The notes below the pieces were generated by a model. It had not been told where the DNA came from, did no database searches, and saw only the letters and a program-made list of their open reading frames with translations. DNA of 56,836 bases, taken from positions 1 to 56,836 of the forward strand of contig JAGOQX010000005.1 in the NCBI GenBank assembly GCA_018063105.1, given 5' to 3'. This document shows, piece by piece, positions 3,443 through 18,390 of the stretch (the first letter of the stretch is position 1; each line of letters starts with the position of its first letter). Both the position numbers and the translations under genes were made by a program. The DNA comes from Patescibacteria group bacterium. Lineage in GTDB: Bacteria > Patescibacteriota > Patescibacteriia > 2-12-FULL-60-25.

Positions 3443-4144
3443 CTACTGAGCGATAACCTTGCCGTCGAAAATGATCTTTTCCGCCTTCCAGCTGGCGATA
3501 TTGTCCGGGTCGCCGCCGGTGTAAATCATAACCACTTCCCAGTTTGAACGAACCGTCGCCCCGAAGCCGTTCTGGCTATCCACGCAGGAGGATACTTGGT
3601 ACTTATTCTCTCCGAGGTTGGTAACCGTCGCGCGGCAGAAGTCCGCGCTCGATGGGGACTTGAGTATGCGCGAGATGTACGGCTTGGCATACGCTGTCGC
3701 ATTGCCCTTATAGTCCGCTTCCTTGACCGCTGGCGCTGTCACTGTTGAATGAGAGCCGCCTTGGCTCGCGATCAAACCGATAACGTAAATTCCGAAGAGG
3801 ACGATGAAGACGGTCGCGATCGGGTGCTTCGCAAACCAGATCTTTTTGCTTTCTTCTTTCATAGCTTTTTGGAGTTCTTCTTTAGATGGTTGAGTTTCGA
3901 TATCGAGATAGATAAGGTCGTCTTTTTTGGCGAGGTAGTAGAAGAGATAAATGAAAAACGGAATCGCAAAACATAAAAAGAGCACAGTCGCAATGAGGCA
4001 GCTGAACTGCTTCTTTCGCATGAGCTGTGCCGTGGTATGCGTCTGGCTTATGACCTGGTAACCGTGTTCAACGGCGATCCGAACTTGAGCCTTGAGATCT
4101 CCTGGGGCTTTTTGGATCAGCCAACGCGGGTTGGTTTGAGGCAT
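3443..4144 (-). CDS. membrane protein of unknown function
   Basis: 233 residues with two hydrophobic segments, at about 48-72 ('LIATVLFLCFAIPFFIYLFYYL') and 108-128 ('PIATVFIVLFGIYVIGLIAS'), and a C-terminal soluble domain of about 100 residues. That domain ('YAKPYISRILKSPSSADFC', 'YQVSSCVDSQNGFGA', 'NWEVVMIY') has the pattern of small uncharacterised exported domains in phage and plasmid genes; two Cys could form a disulfide if it is outside the cell. It ends one base after the terminase stop on the other strand and lies 44 bases downstream of the structured RNA terminator. I do not recognise a named family. Confidence 0.7.
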   Translation of the reverse strand: MPQTNPRWLIQKAPGDLKAQVRIAVEHGYQVISQTHTTAQLMRKKQFSCLIATVLFLCFAIPFFIYLFYYLAKKDDLIYLDIETQPSKEELQKAMKEESKKIWFAKHPIATVFIVLFGIYVIGLIASQGGSHSTVTAPAVKEADYKGNATAYAKPYISRILKSPSSADFCRATVTNLGENKYQVSSCVDSQNGFGATVRSNWEVVMIYTGGDPDNIASWKAEKIIFDGKVIAQ

Positions 4145-4188: not shown

Positions 4189-4215
4189 AAAACAAAAGGA
4201 CACCCCTGAGGTGTC
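4189..4215 (-). terminator. rho-independent terminator of the structured RNA
   Basis: GACACC / GGUGUC stem with a five-base loop followed by CCUUUUGUUUU. The first three stem bases are also the last three of the long closing helix, so helix and terminator hairpin compete at that point. Confidence 0.7.
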
Positions 4216-4344
4216 TAGGCCCAAGTGTCAGAAACCGGAGTCTCTGGCGCTTGTTTTATCAGGAGTGCCCGTTACGTCGCGTCAACGACTCCTGATATAG
4301 CAAAGTTAGCCCTGCTACTGGGTTTCTAACACTCGAACCTAGAC
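4189..4344 (-). ncRNA. structured non-coding RNA, about 156 nt, unidentified
   Basis: On the - strand the segment starting at 4344 forms a 24-bp uninterrupted helix: bases 4344-4321 pair with 4236-4213. Four of the pairs are G-U on this strand, and all four would be C-A mismatches on the other strand, which fixes the direction of transcription. Inside is a perfect 10-bp hairpin (4257-4266 with 4288-4297) and a smaller AGCA/UGCU hairpin. A promoter places +1 at 4344, the first base of the helix, and a rho-independent terminator closes the unit. The outline (closing stem, open middle, terminal stem) recalls 6S RNA, but no sequence motif confirms that. No reverse transcriptase is nearby, which argues against a retron. 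Confidence 0.75.
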
Positions 4345-4350
4345 GACGAT

Positions 4351-4379
4351 AATGTAGCTTAAAAGCCCTTAAAAGTGAA
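4351..4379 (-). promoter_or_regulatory. promoter of the structured RNA
   Basis: -35 TTCACT (4379-4374), 17-base spacer, -10 TACATT (4356-4351). Six bases later is 4344, the first base of the long closing helix of the RNA. The agreement between promoter geometry and RNA end supports both. Confidence 0.6.
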
Positions 4380-4489
4380 GGGGAAGTTACCTACAGAAGC
4401 ATTGTGGGAATTTTCAATACAGAACCAGTGTTTTAAGGTCTGGAGCATGTCTAATAATCTTATTTTAAAGACACTAGATAAGATATTTT

Positions 4490-10610: not shown

Positions 10611-11132
10611 TCAACTTTTTGATCGAATATTCACAGCTTCATCTGCAATAGAAGCAATATAATTTGCAATCCAATCATATCGTTCTTTACTGTTCGTTCC
10701 AGCCGGGTTGTAACATTTGACGACCGAAGACAGCATCTTTCCTGAATTACCGTAGGTGATGTGGTCAAATGGGTTATCGCCCTGTAGAGCGATATAACCT
10801 TCTTGGTTTTTTAAACCATGGATATATATGCCGGCGACACCCATTCCTGAATTCCAAGATTCAATAATCTCATGGTTGATCCACTTGCGATTGGCCGTAT
10901 GCTGCCCAATTAAAACCAAAGTGCAAGAACGATATTTCATTTGATCCTTTATCCAATTCTTAATAGCACTATCGCCAGTTCTAGCTATTGTTTCCCAGTC
11001 GTTATCTGGAGCGGGCTTGTTACCTTCGATCGCTCCAATATTACGCACTTGCGAAACTCTCCAGCAATCTGGTTTGTAATGAAAACTATAAAAAACCTGT
11101 CGTTTTGTCGGCATATCAATATTTAAGCTCAT
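10611..11132 (-). CDS. TIR-domain protein, ThsB-like (DUF1863/MTH538)
   Basis: 173 residues from the ATG at 11132, chosen because GAGGGA lies 7 bases upstream; that start overlaps the hsdM stop by 17 bases. A second ATG at 11114 is possible. 'RQVFYSFHYKPDCWRVSQVR', 'DNDWETIARTGDSAIKNWI', 'SCTLVLIGQHTANRKWINHE' are the marks of the ThsB/MTH538 TIR family; E88 in 'KWINHEI' is the expected catalytic Glu. In Thoeris systems such proteins make NAD-derived signals that activate a second protein. No SIR2-SLOG ThsA is present here; the only obvious partner is the small membrane protein encoded next. Confidence 0.92.
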   Translation of the reverse strand: MSLNIDMPTKRQVFYSFHYKPDCWRVSQVRNIGAIEGNKPAPDNDWETIARTGDSAIKNWIKDQMKYRSCTLVLIGQHTANRKWINHEIIESWNSGMGVAGIYIHGLKNQEGYIALQGDNPFDHITYGNSGKMLSSVVKCYNPAGTNSKERYDWIANYIASIADEAVNIRSKS

Positions 11133-12798
11133 GCAAAAATCCCTCGACTGTTTTTTCAATCTCACGACGTTCATTCTCCAGGCTCTGCAATTCTTCCCAT
11201 ACGAGCTTTACGTCGATCTCCTCCTGTAAAGCTGTTGAATCGATGTATTGCCGAACATTTAGATTGAATTCATTATCCTCAATCTCTTTTAAGTCAACAA
11301 CTTGCGCGAATTTTTCGATGTCAGAATATCCATCATACGCTTTCACGATCTTGTCGATATCTTGCCGACGTAGTGAGTTCTGATTTTTCCCTTCAAGATA
11401 TTCCTTCTCGGCTTCGATAAACAAAACCTTATTTTTCCGCGACTCCGGTTTGTTTTTGTTAATGACGAGAATCGCAACCGGAATGCCAACTCCATAAAAC
11501 AACTTTGCTGGCATTGAGATAACAGCTTCGAGCAAATCATTCTTTAAAATCTGTTCACGAATGCGTGCCTCTGCGCCGCCACGGAACAAGACACCGTGCG
11601 GTAACACCACGCCCGCACGACCATTCGCATTCATTGATTTGATGATATGGAGAACAAACGCGAAGTCGGCGTTCTTCTCTGGCGGCATTTCGTAGCCTTC
11701 AATGCGACCGAATTTATTCTTAAACGCTTCGTACTCCCAGTCCTTGATCGAGTAGGGAGGATTCGCGACGACGATATCAAAAGTCTGGAGTCCGCCCTGC
11801 TGTGCTAAGAATTGCGGGTTCGCAAGCGTGTCGCCACGGCGAATGTCGGCGCTATCGAGGCCATGGAGGAACATGTTGATCTTCGCGATGGCAAACGTAC
11901 TTAAATTCAACTCTTGTCCGTAGAGATACAGTGTCTTCGCAATCTTTTCTCCGGATTTCTGTTCCAAGTAGTCGTATGCTTCAAGAAGAAAACCGCCCGA
12001 ACCAACGGTCGGATCGTAAATATGATCCTTCTGGTGAGGTTTCAAGATACCGATGATAACTTTTTCAACTTCACGTGGCGTGTAGAACTCGCCGCCTTTC
12101 TTTCCAGCGTCAGCTGCGAATTGCTTGATGAGATATTCGTAAGCGTCGCCAAGAAGATCGGAGCTAATATAGTTGCTGCCAAAATTGTATTGCGAAAAAT
12201 GATTAATGAGTCGCTGGAGCGTCTCATTTGGGAAACGGTCTTTGTTGGCAAAATCCAAATCATCAAAAATCTTATCAAGCTTGGGACTGTTGGCGTTCGC
12301 AAGCTTCTCAAAAATCTCATTCAACTTCTGGCCGATGTTTTCCGCTTGTTCGGTGATGACCGTCCAACGACATTCTTCTGGAACCTGAAAACGATGGTTG
12401 TAGTCAGCTCTGGCGATTTCTTCGTTATTATATTCATCCATCACTTTCTTAAACTCTTCATCCCAGACGTCGCTGATGCGTTTAAAAAACAGTAGACCGA
12501 AAATATATTTCTTGTAATCCGAGCTATCGATTTTGCCGCGAAGAATATCCGCGCTCTTCCAGAGAAAGGCTTCAAGCTGAGGAAGGGTGAGTTGACTGCC
12601 CATCTTGTCCACGATCGCTTCAATATCCTGGGGGCGGTATTTGCGGTCACCCCTGGAACCCGCGCGAAGCGGGACGAGGATTCCTTCCTTTTCCCAGTTC
12701 CGAAGGGTATCCGGATGGATGTTAAAAATCTCCGCCACTTGGCCGATGGAGAGGAGCTCCGGCAAACCTTTAAGCTTTTCTTGAATATCTTTGCGCAT
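11116..12798 (-). CDS. hsdM: type I methyltransferase M subunit with fused MerR-like HTH
   Basis: 560-residue HsdM. The methyltransferase has SAM motif 'DPTVGSGGFLLEAY' at 262-275 and catalytic 'NPPYS' at 346-350, preceded by the helical N-terminal domain ('LEAFLWKSADILRGKIDSSD'). Unusually, residues 13-66 form an extra MerR-type winged helix: 'LLSIGQVAEIFNIHPDTLRN' followed by 'WEKEGILVP' and 'RKYRPQDIEAIV'. Ordinary HsdM proteins start at the position of residue 70 here. The fused domain may read an operator, possibly the tandem 10-bp repeat just upstream of its own promoter. It is the first gene of the operon; the 5' leader is only about 8 bases. Confidence 0.96.
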   Translation of the reverse strand: MRKDIQEKLKGLPELLSIGQVAEIFNIHPDTLRNWEKEGILVPLRAGSRGDRKYRPQDIEAIVDKMGSQLTLPQLEAFLWKSADILRGKIDSSDYKKYIFGLLFFKRISDVWDEEFKKVMDEYNNEEIARADYNHRFQVPEECRWTVITEQAENIGQKLNEIFEKLANANSPKLDKIFDDLDFANKDRFPNETLQRLINHFSQYNFGSNYISSDLLGDAYEYLIKQFAADAGKKGGEFYTPREVEKVIIGILKPHQKDHIYDPTVGSGGFLLEAYDYLEQKSGEKIAKTLYLYGQELNLSTFAIAKINMFLHGLDSADIRRGDTLANPQFLAQQGGLQTFDIVVANPPYSIKDWEYEAFKNKFGRIEGYEMPPEKNADFAFVLHIIKSMNANGRAGVVLPHGVLFRGGAEARIREQILKNDLLEAVISMPAKLFYGVGIPVAILVINKNKPESRKNKVLFIEAEKEYLEGKNQNSLRRQDIDKIVKAYDGYSDIEKFAQVVDLKEIEDNEFNLNVRQYIDSTALQEEIDVKLVWEELQSLENERREIEKTVEGFLHELKY

Positions 12799-14307: not shown

Positions 14308-15030
14308 CTAAACGATGGCGCTTCTTTTTTTGACAGCCTCATTAATTAGCCGCATTCCCATAATTCGTTTCCGGACTAAACTTTGAATATTTTCAAGATG
14401 AGTTATGGATACGTCTAAAAACTGGTCTGAAAAATGCTTCTGAGCTTCAAGAATTTTTGAATGGCATTTTCTGATTTTATTACGAGATCCGCAGGTACAA
14501 AAATGATGACCTTTATATTTTCTTTTTTTGAGATTGGCTAAATAAGTCGGCAGCTCTACGATTTCGCTCAAACCGAAAATCTCTTGATAGAAATCGAGCC
14601 TTCCGTTCTCACCGTGAGGTCTGTCGCCAAAAGGCCATGTTTTATTTCTTTCAAAGTAAATTTGAGATATGAAGCAAGAACGCAGCGGACCTTCTAAAAA
14701 GGATTGAATGTCCTGCTGTTTTTTAGTTCGCCACAATAAGTAGTCTTCATGCGTCATGAAGCATAGGGTTCCATCTTGCAGATTCACGTGACGTCTCTCC
14801 TCTAACGGAATACGTCCGCCTACCTCTTTAACGGTAGGCCAGACTATTGGAAAAGAGTCGGGAACGAATATTTCAAGGCTGAACTCGTCTAAAATCCCGT
14901 ATTCATCTGTAATTCGATAAAAACCCCGAATAGAAAAACCACCCTCAGCGTCGAATACGGTCAGATCGGGTTGTGAGGAGAGTATCTGCAGCTGTAGATC
15001 GTCTACATGCATGATAGTTACTCTAGCCAC
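14308..15030 (-). CDS. E2-like ubiquitin-conjugating protein of CBASS, with SEC-C-like tail
   Basis: About 240 residues from a GTG at 15030; an ATG at 15012, six codons later, is equally possible. The N-terminal 120 residues have the prokaryotic E2 plan: 'FSLEIFVPDSFPIVWPTV', then 'RHVNLQDGTLCFM' with C90 as the expected catalytic Cys, then the helix around 'SFLEGPLRSCFISQIYFE'. Near residues 174-190 a SEC-C-like zinc knuckle follows ('HHFCTCGSRNKIRKCH'). In CBASS, E2-type Cap2 proteins conjugate or prime the cyclase. No E1 or JAB gene accompanies it, so this matches the short, E2-only type II arrangement. Confidence 0.85.
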   Translation of the reverse strand: MARVTIMHVDDLQLQILSSQPDLTVFDAEGGFSIRGFYRITDEYGILDEFSLEIFVPDSFPIVWPTVKEVGGRIPLEERRHVNLQDGTLCFMTHEDYLLWRTKKQQDIQSFLEGPLRSCFISQIYFERNKTWPFGDRPHGENGRLDFYQEIFGLSEIVELPTYLANLKKRKYKGHHFCTCGSRNKIRKCHSKILEAQKHFSDQFLDVSITHLENIQSLVRKRIMGMRLINEAVKKRSAIV

Positions 15031-15917
15031 AGCTTGCTCGGCTCAGGGACACTCCGAGTGACGTTTTCAATACGCGCAGCGCGATCTGAAGAGAAGGTCT
15101 TAGCCGAGGTGGGAAAAACCGATTCCCATCCGTCATTCTCTACGCTAATAAGCGTGGCTTTCGCTGCCTTTTGTAGAGAGCTACGGATAGATTCACTGAA
15201 CGCTGTCGAAAGATCGTTCCCCGTCGCATTCGCAGGATCTACAATTTTCACGTTATCGATATCATCACGCAATGCCGTCAAAAAGCTCGTCATTTGCTGA
15301 TCCAGAGATGAAGATTTTTTGTCTTTCAGAACTTCAATCACGACCAATTCAAGAACGAATGAACGAATTGTTTCATCGAAACCACGACGATGCCGCCAGT
15401 ACTTGGCAAGCTTGATTGCGTCCGTAAGACCACTCTCTTTTACGTGACTAATGTGTGTGCGCAAGTTGGTCTGGAGACGGTTCTTATCGCCGTCATTCTG
15501 GTACAAGAAGCAATCGGTCTGACTATCATCAACGAAGCGTCCTGGAACTACATCCACATGCAACGGTACGCCGTTGTCGTCTTTCGTGGAAAGAAAAAGG
15601 GCGGCGTTCTTGGGCGTTACGGTGTACTCCTCAGAAAGGAAGTCCTGGATAGTATTATAAATCTCCTCAAGGGTGCCGCCCGCTTCCGTCTCGTTGTTTT
15701 GAAAATAGCATACGACGTCCAAATCGTAATGATCTCGGATCATCGTTCCCTTGGCATAAGACCCTGCAATTTCGATAACCGGTACAGCGGATGTCAGCTT
15801 GCCTCGAATTAGCTTTTCGACATCATTCTTAACAGTTAACACGGCAGCGGCTTCGGAAGAATTTTCATCCAGCTCATGAGCGGCGACTACGCTCTGGAGA
15901 TATTCGTTGTCATTCAT
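15018..15917 (-). CDS. CBASS CD-NTase (cyclic oligonucleotide synthase)
   Basis: 299-residue cGAS/DncV-like nucleotidyltransferase. The active site is visible: 'AGSYAKGTMIRDHYDLDVV' gives the GS helix at 52-53 and acidic D65 and D67, and 'PLHVDVVPG' supplies the third Asp, D122. The C-terminal helical domain contains 'AIKLAKYWRHRRG'. It overlaps the effector upstream by 4 bases and the E2 gene downstream by 13, so the three are co-translated. On phage infection it should make a cyclic di- or trinucleotide read by the SAVED domain of the neighbour; the exact product is not readable from sequence. Confidence 0.95.
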   Translation of the reverse strand: MNDNEYLQSVVAAHELDENSSEAAAVLTVKNDVEKLIRGKLTSAVPVIEIAGSYAKGTMIRDHYDLDVVCYFQNNETEAGGTLEEIYNTIQDFLSEEYTVTPKNAALFLSTKDDNGVPLHVDVVPGRFVDDSQTDCFLYQNDGDKNRLQTNLRTHISHVKESGLTDAIKLAKYWRHRRGFDETIRSFVLELVVIEVLKDKKSSSLDQQMTSFLTALRDDIDNVKIVDPANATGNDLSTAFSESIRSSLQKAAKATLISVENDGWESVFPTSAKTFSSDRAARIENVTRSVPEPSKLWLE

Positions 15918-17074
15918 ACATTTTCTTGACGCGTGACGATTAGTGCTTTGTTAAACCCACCTCTTGTTTTGTCCGCGTCGTAAATAACAAGGTTAGGGTG
16001 TACTTTTGGCAGCAGGTCGAAACCGCAGGATACCGCCACAGGAGCGGGCATGGCTGGATAAATGCTGACCTCTGTCACTCCGGGATGATCTTCGCAGATT
16101 CGGGCGACCAATTGACCGTAGAGCTTCCGAAACTTAGTAAGGTCTCCTTGAGTTTTGAGAAAGAAGTAGTTTGGCCCTTGTTCGCCATCTTTTACTTCGA
16201 TCTCGTAAACCGAGAACTCATCGGAAATCCCTGTGTCAGCAAGATGAATTTTGCCGCTCAAGGAAAAAATGATCGCAACCTGCTTTGGATCAGCTCCATC
16301 TTTTAGCTTCGTGAGAACATACTCCGCTACCCCCTCACCGTCACCCCATTTCCACGTGTCAGTTTCGCGATGTTTCTGATAGAAATCGGTGGGTATCTTA
16401 TTAGTGAGGCTGGCTCCGAATTGAATAAGCAACGGAATCGGTCCGAGCGCGTATACAGAAATGTGCGGTGGGCGTCCTCCCGCCGGTGGCTCACGGTAGA
16501 ACCCATATAGGTGATCGTGGATAGCGTCTTGGCCTGCCGTCTTATACCAGTCTTCGCGATCCGGGATCGTCGAGAAATCGAGAGCGTTCGACCTACATGA
16601 CGGATAGCGGTTCGGGAAAATTGACGTGAATACATCGGAATCGGAAACGCTTACGGGGTCTTTCCCAATATTCGCAATGAAAATGAGCGGCTTGGTTTTT
16701 CGTTCAGGACCAAAGCCCGTGATCAAGAAGACCCGCTCTTCGTGTTCTTTTTTGAACTCTTGCAACAGCTCTACAGGATATTCCTCTTCATGATCGTCAA
16801 TCCTCTTGTGACACGCTTGGCACAACAGCATGAGATTTTCGATCGCGTTAACATCGATGATGGCTTCATTTGCAGGGCGCGGGCCACGGTCGCTGAACGC
16901 GTAAATATGAGCCTTCTCTGCGTAGTTGCCGTCCTGCTGCGTTGGCTCGTGACGAAGCGTGAACTTATTGCAACCACGAAACTCGCATCGACCTGCCGTG
17001 AGGGCGTGTAAGCGATTGGTTGCGTTTGGTGGATACGATCGTTCTTTGGGTTTCGAGCCTTTTGTTTTCGTCAT
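15914..17074 (-). CDS. HNH-SAVED CBASS effector (Cap5-like)
   Basis: 386 residues. The first 95 form an HNH nuclease with zinc Cys pairs 'CEFRGC' and 'CQACH' and catalytic residues in 'AEKAHIYAFSDRGPR', 'ENLMLLCQACHKRIDDHEEE'. The rest (about 140-386) is a SAVED domain: 'AIIFSLSGKIHLAD', 'SVYEIEVKDGEQGPNYFFLK', and a final strand-rich part with 'VSIYPAMPAPVAVSCGFDLL'. Known Cap5 proteins bind a cyclic oligonucleotide with SAVED and then degrade double-stranded DNA. First gene of the CBASS operon; its stop overlaps the cyclase start by 4 bases. Confidence 0.95.
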   Translation of the reverse strand: MTKTKGSKPKERSYPPNATNRLHALTAGRCEFRGCNKFTLRHEPTQQDGNYAEKAHIYAFSDRGPRPANEAIIDVNAIENLMLLCQACHKRIDDHEEEYPVELLQEFKKEHEERVFLITGFGPERKTKPLIFIANIGKDPVSVSDSDVFTSIFPNRYPSCRSNALDFSTIPDREDWYKTAGQDAIHDHLYGFYREPPAGGRPPHISVYALGPIPLLIQFGASLTNKIPTDFYQKHRETDTWKWGDGEGVAEYVLTKLKDGADPKQVAIIFSLSGKIHLADTGISDEFSVYEIEVKDGEQGPNYFFLKTQGDLTKFRKLYGQLVARICEDHPGVTEVSIYPAMPAPVAVSCGFDLLPKVHPNLVIYDADKTRGGFNKALIVTRQENV

Positions 17075-17889: not shown

Positions 17890-18390
17890 ATGGATTCGCA
17901 TATAAAATACATTGAAGAGATCGCTAAGCAGGCGTTAAAAAAAGCTCCCAATGATGAGCTGCCAGTGCCTGTGGAAGAAATTGTTAAAAGCCTCGGACTA
18001 GAGGTAGTCGCTTTCCCTTTTCATCAAAAAATATCGGGTTTATTGAAGAAAGAAGAAGGTATCATCGCTATTAACAAAAATCATCATCCGATACGACAAC
18101 GTTTCACTACGGCGCATGAATTGGGGCACTTCCTTTTAGGGCACGGCATGGAAGAGATGAATGATTCTGGTGTATCCATTTACGAAGATGAGATCGTGGA
18201 TGAGTCCTTTGATAAACCCGACCTCAGGGAACGCGAAGCGAACATCTTTGCATCGGCTCTTTTAATGCCGGCAGATAGAGTAAAAAACGTGGTAAAAAAG
18301 GAAGGCTTAGAGATCGATAAACTCGCCGCTTTGTTTGGAGTAAGTAGACAGGCCATGACAATCAGACTGCTATCGTTAAAATTGATATAG
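17890..18390 (+). CDS. ImmA/IrrE-type metallopeptidase
   Basis: 166-residue M78-type zinc peptidase. HELGH at residues 76-80 in 'RFTTAHELGHFLLGH' is the active site, and 'REREANIFASALLMPADRVK' supplies the third ligand E. A small C-terminal HTH-like segment ('IDKLAALFGVSRQAMTIRL') is usual for the family. It is co-transcribed with the XRE gene, its probable cleavage target. A strong terminator follows directly. Confidence 0.95.
   Translation: MDSHIKYIEEIAKQALKKAPNDELPVPVEEIVKSLGLEVVAFPFHQKISGLLKKEEGIIAINKNHHPIRQRFTTAHELGHFLLGHGMEEMNDSGVSIYEDEIVDESFDKPDLREREANIFASALLMPADRVKNVVKKEGLEIDKLAALFGVSRQAMTIRLLSLKLI

Follow-up and report, generated by a model that had tools for sequence, protein, structure and literature searches.

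A candidate leader-RNA family that may attenuate transcription of mobile-element cargo genes in Patescibacteria

Attenuating riboswitches and leaders place mutually exclusive helices and an intrinsic terminator in a 5′ leader, ahead of a start codon. The RNA described here lies in the window (the whole stretch of DNA that was analysed, 56,836 nucleotides of a Patescibacteria group bacterium, contig JAGOQX010000005.1) and resembles them, as a same-strand 5′ leader whose intrinsic terminator has a conserved, exclusive alternative (Y:T3′ versus T5′:T3′ and X:Y versus X:Z, segments as in Table 1). Unlike them, it has no Rfam 15 match and no identified conserved ligand-binding core, precedes unrelated cargo genes of mobile elements, has a predicted start site of its own at the first base of its closing helix, and appears to hold a six-segment chain of competing pairings.

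Three further systems invite comparison. Mobile attenuators (Naville and Gautheret 2010, PMC2965389) are insertion-sequence and prophage terminators that spread recently, keep high sequence identity and were exapted; they too are related terminator elements of mobile DNA ahead of unrelated genes, whereas the RNA here appears ancient and strongly diverged and retains its own putative promoter and a covarying switch. The put RNA of phage HK022 (PMC9378689) folds into two stem-loops within about 70 nt and exerts its effect through binding to RNA polymerase. Both are phage RNAs near a promoter that may govern downstream termination, but the architectures differ and the pairing described here would compete directly with the adjacent terminator. 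In AbiF and type III toxin-antitoxin modules (PMC12373285, PMC5086642), which are often found on prophages, the order is promoter, structured RNA, terminator and ORF, and the same order is found here, in contrast without antitoxin repeats in the RNA and with unrelated cargo proteins.

Finally, 6S RNA, to which the original prediction loosely likened the shape of the hairpin, also has a long closing helix and a length of about 150 nt. This likeness did not survive comparison: the RNA has no Rfam 6S match, is sporadic (16 of 381 class genomes) and mobile rather than present once per genome, and has a co-oriented gene behind it and a putatively bistable interior. A host 6S RNA accompanied by a phage copy was likewise ruled out, by the lack of a second copy in the window's genome and by the sporadic occurrence.

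The hairpin and its relatives

All 24 positions of 4344-4321 find a partner in 4236-4213 on the − strand, 20 in Watson-Crick and four in G-U pairs, just as had been predicted; compared as DNA, the two arms are 83% complementary. The minimum free energy of the window fold is −74.9 kcal/mol against −48.0 ± 4.2 kcal/mol in 200 shuffles (z −6.4), none of which was as good. The prediction that the terminator begins within the last three helix bases also held, since a terminator scan picked up 4215-4199 together with the U-tract, and GAC at 4215-4213 makes up both the first three terminator bases and the last three bases of the helix. An inverted repeat listed in the window, with arms 4251-4266 and 4288-4303, supports segment Y. 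A hairpin, CCCCTTYACTTYAAGGGG, is common to the window (4360-4385) and to genome G331, where it lies upstream of locus L032; it sits just upstream of the −10, overlaps the −35 and resembles a terminator of upstream transcription.

Table 1. Predicted parts of the leader and the gene behind it, in window coordinates
Feature	Position	Strand	Basis
−35-like TTCACT	4374..4379	−	Sequence; 4/6 consensus; weak
−10-like TACATT, 6 nt ahead of first helix base	4351..4356	−	Sequence; position kept in 53/59 homologues
P1 5′ strand, begins GUC	4321..4344	−	Fold and covariation
P2, small hairpin; variable in sequence and size, missing from some homologues	4297..4318	−	Fold
Segment X, partner Y or Z	4279..4297	−	
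Segment Y (GGGCACUCCUGA), complementary to X and T3′	4259..4270	−	
A-rich linker with AAACA motif; unpaired in either modelled state	4250..4258	−	Conservation
Segment Z, partner X	4237..4250	−	
P1 3′ strand; final GAC common to terminator	4213..4236	−	Fold and covariation
T5′, terminator 5′ arm GACACC	4210..4215	−	Terminator scan; inner pairs covary
T3′, terminator loop and 3′ arm (UCAGGGGUGUCC); partner T5′ or Y	4198..4209	−	Terminator scan
U-tract (UUUUGUUUU)	4189..4197	−	Sequence
Downstream ORF, 233 aa, two hydrophobic segments; presumed controlled gene	3443..4144	−	

The original prediction recognised no RNA family in the hairpin, and indeed the Rfam 15 covariance models at the gathering score gave no match in the region, either in the window or at 20 diverse homologous loci. 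One sub-threshold candidate, the sR1 snoRNA on the + strand (17.2 bits against a gathering score of 45), was set aside. Homologues carrying compensatory changes, which the prediction had called for, were found in Patescibacteria by covariance-model searches. A BLAST search within the order gave two relatives in other genera and one more in another family, all with compensatory changes, and a model built from four sequences matched 12 of 381 class genomes. Three more loci came from scanning genome contigs for a pattern (among the titles are Candidatus Uhrbacteria, Parcubacteria group and Patescibacteria group). A model of 16 sequences matched 16 of 380 genomes of the phylum and, within the single family f106, 43 of 198; a third model, of 55 sequences, matched 16 of 381 class genomes (about 4% of those sampled). 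The window's genome holds a single copy. One homologue (L055, 7321-7463) lies on a contig labelled Lentisphaerae GWF2_44_16; because the 55-sequence model, applied as an outgroup control to 148 other sampled genomes of that class, found the RNA in none, the contig probably represents a Patescibacteria element that was binned wrongly. Several candidates were discarded: phage and plasmid records yielded only chance matches by BLAST, the six matches to a 17-base pattern in viral contigs were all due to chance and in coding DNA, and two weak BLAST matches were dropped, one (in G008) that looked like chance in coding DNA and one (in G227) with an E value of 0.009.

Strand asymmetry, promoter and competing pairings

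In the lowest 13 positions of P1, counted without fitting to the structure in 31 non-redundant sequences, we found 359 Watson-Crick pairs, 38 G-U, no A-C and six others. The absence of A-C means that selection acts on the − strand RNA and not on a DNA repeat, which extends to the whole family (403 closing-helix positions) the strand argument first made from the window. A long inverted repeat inside mobile DNA, with large serine recombinases nearby, might otherwise be taken for the inverted repeats at the ends of a small transposable element, or for a hairpin-like recombination site, yet this reading is already contradicted by the strand asymmetry; with compensatory changes throughout the helix, a conserved promoter and terminator and a single copy in the window's genome also against it, we regard it as scarcely credible.

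The promoter proposed for the window (TTCACT-N17-TACATT) proved weak by itself, having eight of 12 consensus bases and going unlisted by the promoter scan, while its position fared better. Among 59 homologues a TATAAT-like −10 precedes the first helix base by 6 nt in 44 and by 7 nt in nine, and the match to TATAAT is at least five of six bases in 51. Comparison thereby shows the position of the putative promoter, and the family supports a window site that would be weak on its own.

Across 55 aligned sequences, 95% of the cells of the P1 and X:Z helix are paired, with a covariation score of 0.595 versus 0.047-0.080 with a slid partner and 0.155 when shuffled (none of 500 shuffles was as high); the alignment was fitted to the tested structure and is hence biased toward it, and the margin is very large. 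The conserved unpaired motifs are all short, namely the A's before a conserved GGCA, and AAACA. Segment Y starts at this GGCA, and its sequence complements the loop and 3′ arm of the terminator (T3′). Of the 319 Y:T3′ cells in 29 non-redundant sequences, 302 are paired, against 225 ± 7 in 2000 shuffles (maximum 248). At position −1, which lies beyond the terminator stem, the pair is G-C in 17 sequences and C-G in 10, and agreement extends to positions within the terminator loop, so that terminator pairing cannot explain the match at these positions. The same holds in a held-out set in which a few sequences resemble training sequences: 175 of 187 cells are paired, against 130 ± 6, in the 17 of 24 with standard GUC/GAC/GUC ends, and the remaining seven keep 10-12 of the 13 pairs when the best position is searched for, a procedure that inflates the count.

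Segment X is matched to both of its partners. The X:Y duplex has an energy of −18.0 kcal/mol versus −11.1 kcal/mol when the segments are swapped between species, and X:Z has −17.2 versus −10.8 kcal/mol, the native duplexes being better by about 6.5 kcal/mol. In all 31 sequences the footprints of Y and Z on X overlap, and a simple pseudoknot holding both helices at once was rejected as a general rule. The inner pairs of T5′:T3′ covary, and most members have an ordinary terminator hairpin here (mean −9.9 kcal/mol); T5′ may pair either with T3′ or, through its GAC, with the GUC at the 5′ end of P1.

Comparison thus shows P1, X:Y, X:Z, Y:T3′ and T5′:T3′ as predicted helices and, through the nucleotides they have in common, the predicted mutual exclusion of these pairings. 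The six segments form a putative chain, P1 5′ end–T5′–T3′–Y–X–Z, in which neighbouring pairings would exclude each other and every link is backed by covariation or swap controls. It can be followed in triplets, GUC (P1 5′)–GAC (T5′)–GUC (T3′)–GGC (Y)–GCC (X)–GGC (Z, in many members). Since each link excludes the next, the chain resolves into two whole states, X:Y with the terminator versus X:Z with Y:T3′ and complete P1, which lie within a few kcal/mol of each other by a rough estimate that leaves out the pseudoknot cost.

Genes behind the terminator

The RNA had been described as stand-alone, a description that fails in all 58 homologues with downstream sequence: in each, an ORF on the same strand begins 2-121 nt (in most cases 20-65 nt) past the terminator, and 24 of 24 further sequences have one just past it (ORF calling was permissive, with ATG, GTG and TTG starts). 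Many f106 members have a Shine-Dalgarno sequence between terminator and ORF, and upstream genes have no fixed orientation; gene order too is thus shown by comparison of predicted ORFs. In the window the ORF starts about 50 nt past the terminator, on the same strand, and its putative membrane-protein product has no Pfam or PADLOC family. The downstream ORFs fall into 35 protein clusters, mostly unrelated, with a hydrophobic segment in 42 of 59, and the Pfam names behind the RNA include DUF4352, DUF4190, trypsin-like peptidase, GmrSD, DNA methylases, T4SS pilin and NHL repeats. At two loci, L126 and L127, the ORF directly behind the RNA is a large serine recombinase, as judged from its N-terminal sequence.

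This variety bears on whether the RNA could instead be a trans-acting structured RNA made in excess, acting on the gene product or elsewhere, with leaky readthrough accounting for expression of the downstream gene, on the pattern of type III toxin-antitoxin or AbiF-type modules. The layout is that of those modules (PMC12373285, PMC5086642), and pairing of the A-tract with the U-tract could protect the 3′ end. However, ORFs of 35 clusters and unrelated folds provide no common protein partner, the RNA has no direct repeats, and conserved competing pairings favour a switch over a fixed shape; Pfam matches among 40 downstream ORFs included no ToxN-family endoribonuclease. We consider a trans-acting RNA improbable.

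A large serine recombinase lies within 10 kb of 23 of 32 loci, against a background of 53 matches to the domain in 25 genomes, or about two per megabase, which gives an expectation of about 0.04 for a 20-kb stretch. Seven loci have small terminase genes, and methylase genes likewise recur in seven. Of the role first suggested, in a mobile element or in anti-phage control, the link to mobile elements was upheld; a specific anti-phage role is unsupported, the genes behind the RNA coding mostly for membrane proteins or secreted ones, with restriction genes among them only in some cases. The window itself carries a CBASS-type operon recognised by PADLOC (14308-17074 on the − strand and 17890-18390 on the + strand; E2-like protein, CD-NTase cyclase and HNH-SAVED endonuclease effector) with a capP-like peptidase nearby. 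A Thoeris ThsB-like TIR protein (10611-11174, − strand) lies within a type I restriction operon (HsdM, HsdS, HsdR), and no ThsA was recognised among the ten proteins scanned.

A possible attenuation switch

These comparisons are best read as a new family of leader RNAs that would attenuate the transcription of cargo genes in mobile elements. We think it probable that the RNA acts in cis as an attenuator of the cargo gene directly behind it; we infer regulated termination, the assignment of the ON state and a signal (ligand, protein, RNA or polymerase speed) that would choose between the states. Transcription would start at the GUC with which the long helix P1 begins, and X and Y, emerging earliest, would form a hairpin. 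As Z and the P1 3′ strand follow, P1 would zip and Z could displace Y from X. Should X:Y persist, T5′ would pair with T3′ to form the intrinsic terminator and the gene would be off. Should X:Z win, Y would be freed for T3′ while the P1 5′ GUC holds the GAC of T5′, no terminator hairpin would form and the gene would be read. Because Y in this ON state sits in a loop far from T3′, Y:T3′ with P1 closed would be a pseudoknot and would need a bent three-way junction, a geometry that is one of the two chief objections to this reading.

The other is that the Y:T3′ helix abuts the U-tract and might itself be a terminator. The same leader and helices could then work with the opposite polarity, Y:T3′ serving as the effective terminator stem and X:Y freeing T3′ for readthrough when P1 holds T5′. 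Y:T3′ reaches exactly to the U-tract through the covarying −1 pairs (G-C or C-G), plus −2 in one subgroup, and the conserved A's ahead of Y could pair with the U-tract; at L126 and L127, moreover, the local T5′:T3′ stem is weak and Y:T3′ is kept, a combination that would reverse the polarity. Against this stands the normal, covarying T5′:T3′ terminator hairpin of most members, and we judge the reversed arrangement unlikely, if somewhat less so than a trans-acting RNA.

A further point against the attenuating leader, still the preferred reading, is that the controlled genes are unrelated, so that they give no hint of the signal. More tentatively, and with greater doubt than we attach to attenuation in cis, the RNA could be a phylum-wide switch of phages and serine-recombinase elements, in which one common cue would drive a six-segment strand-exchange cascade that gates any cargo gene; in two cases (L126 and L127) that gene is the recombinase itself.

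We found no description of any leader RNA from the Candidate Phyla Radiation in the open-access literature, and the regulatory RNAs of these bacteria are almost unstudied. If true, the reading proposed here would add a large family of RNAs whose pairing rules can be put to the test. The RNA would mark the cargo genes of mobile elements in host-dependent bacteria and so offer a way to list them, and one switch ahead of so many unrelated genes raises the question of which common cue the elements read.
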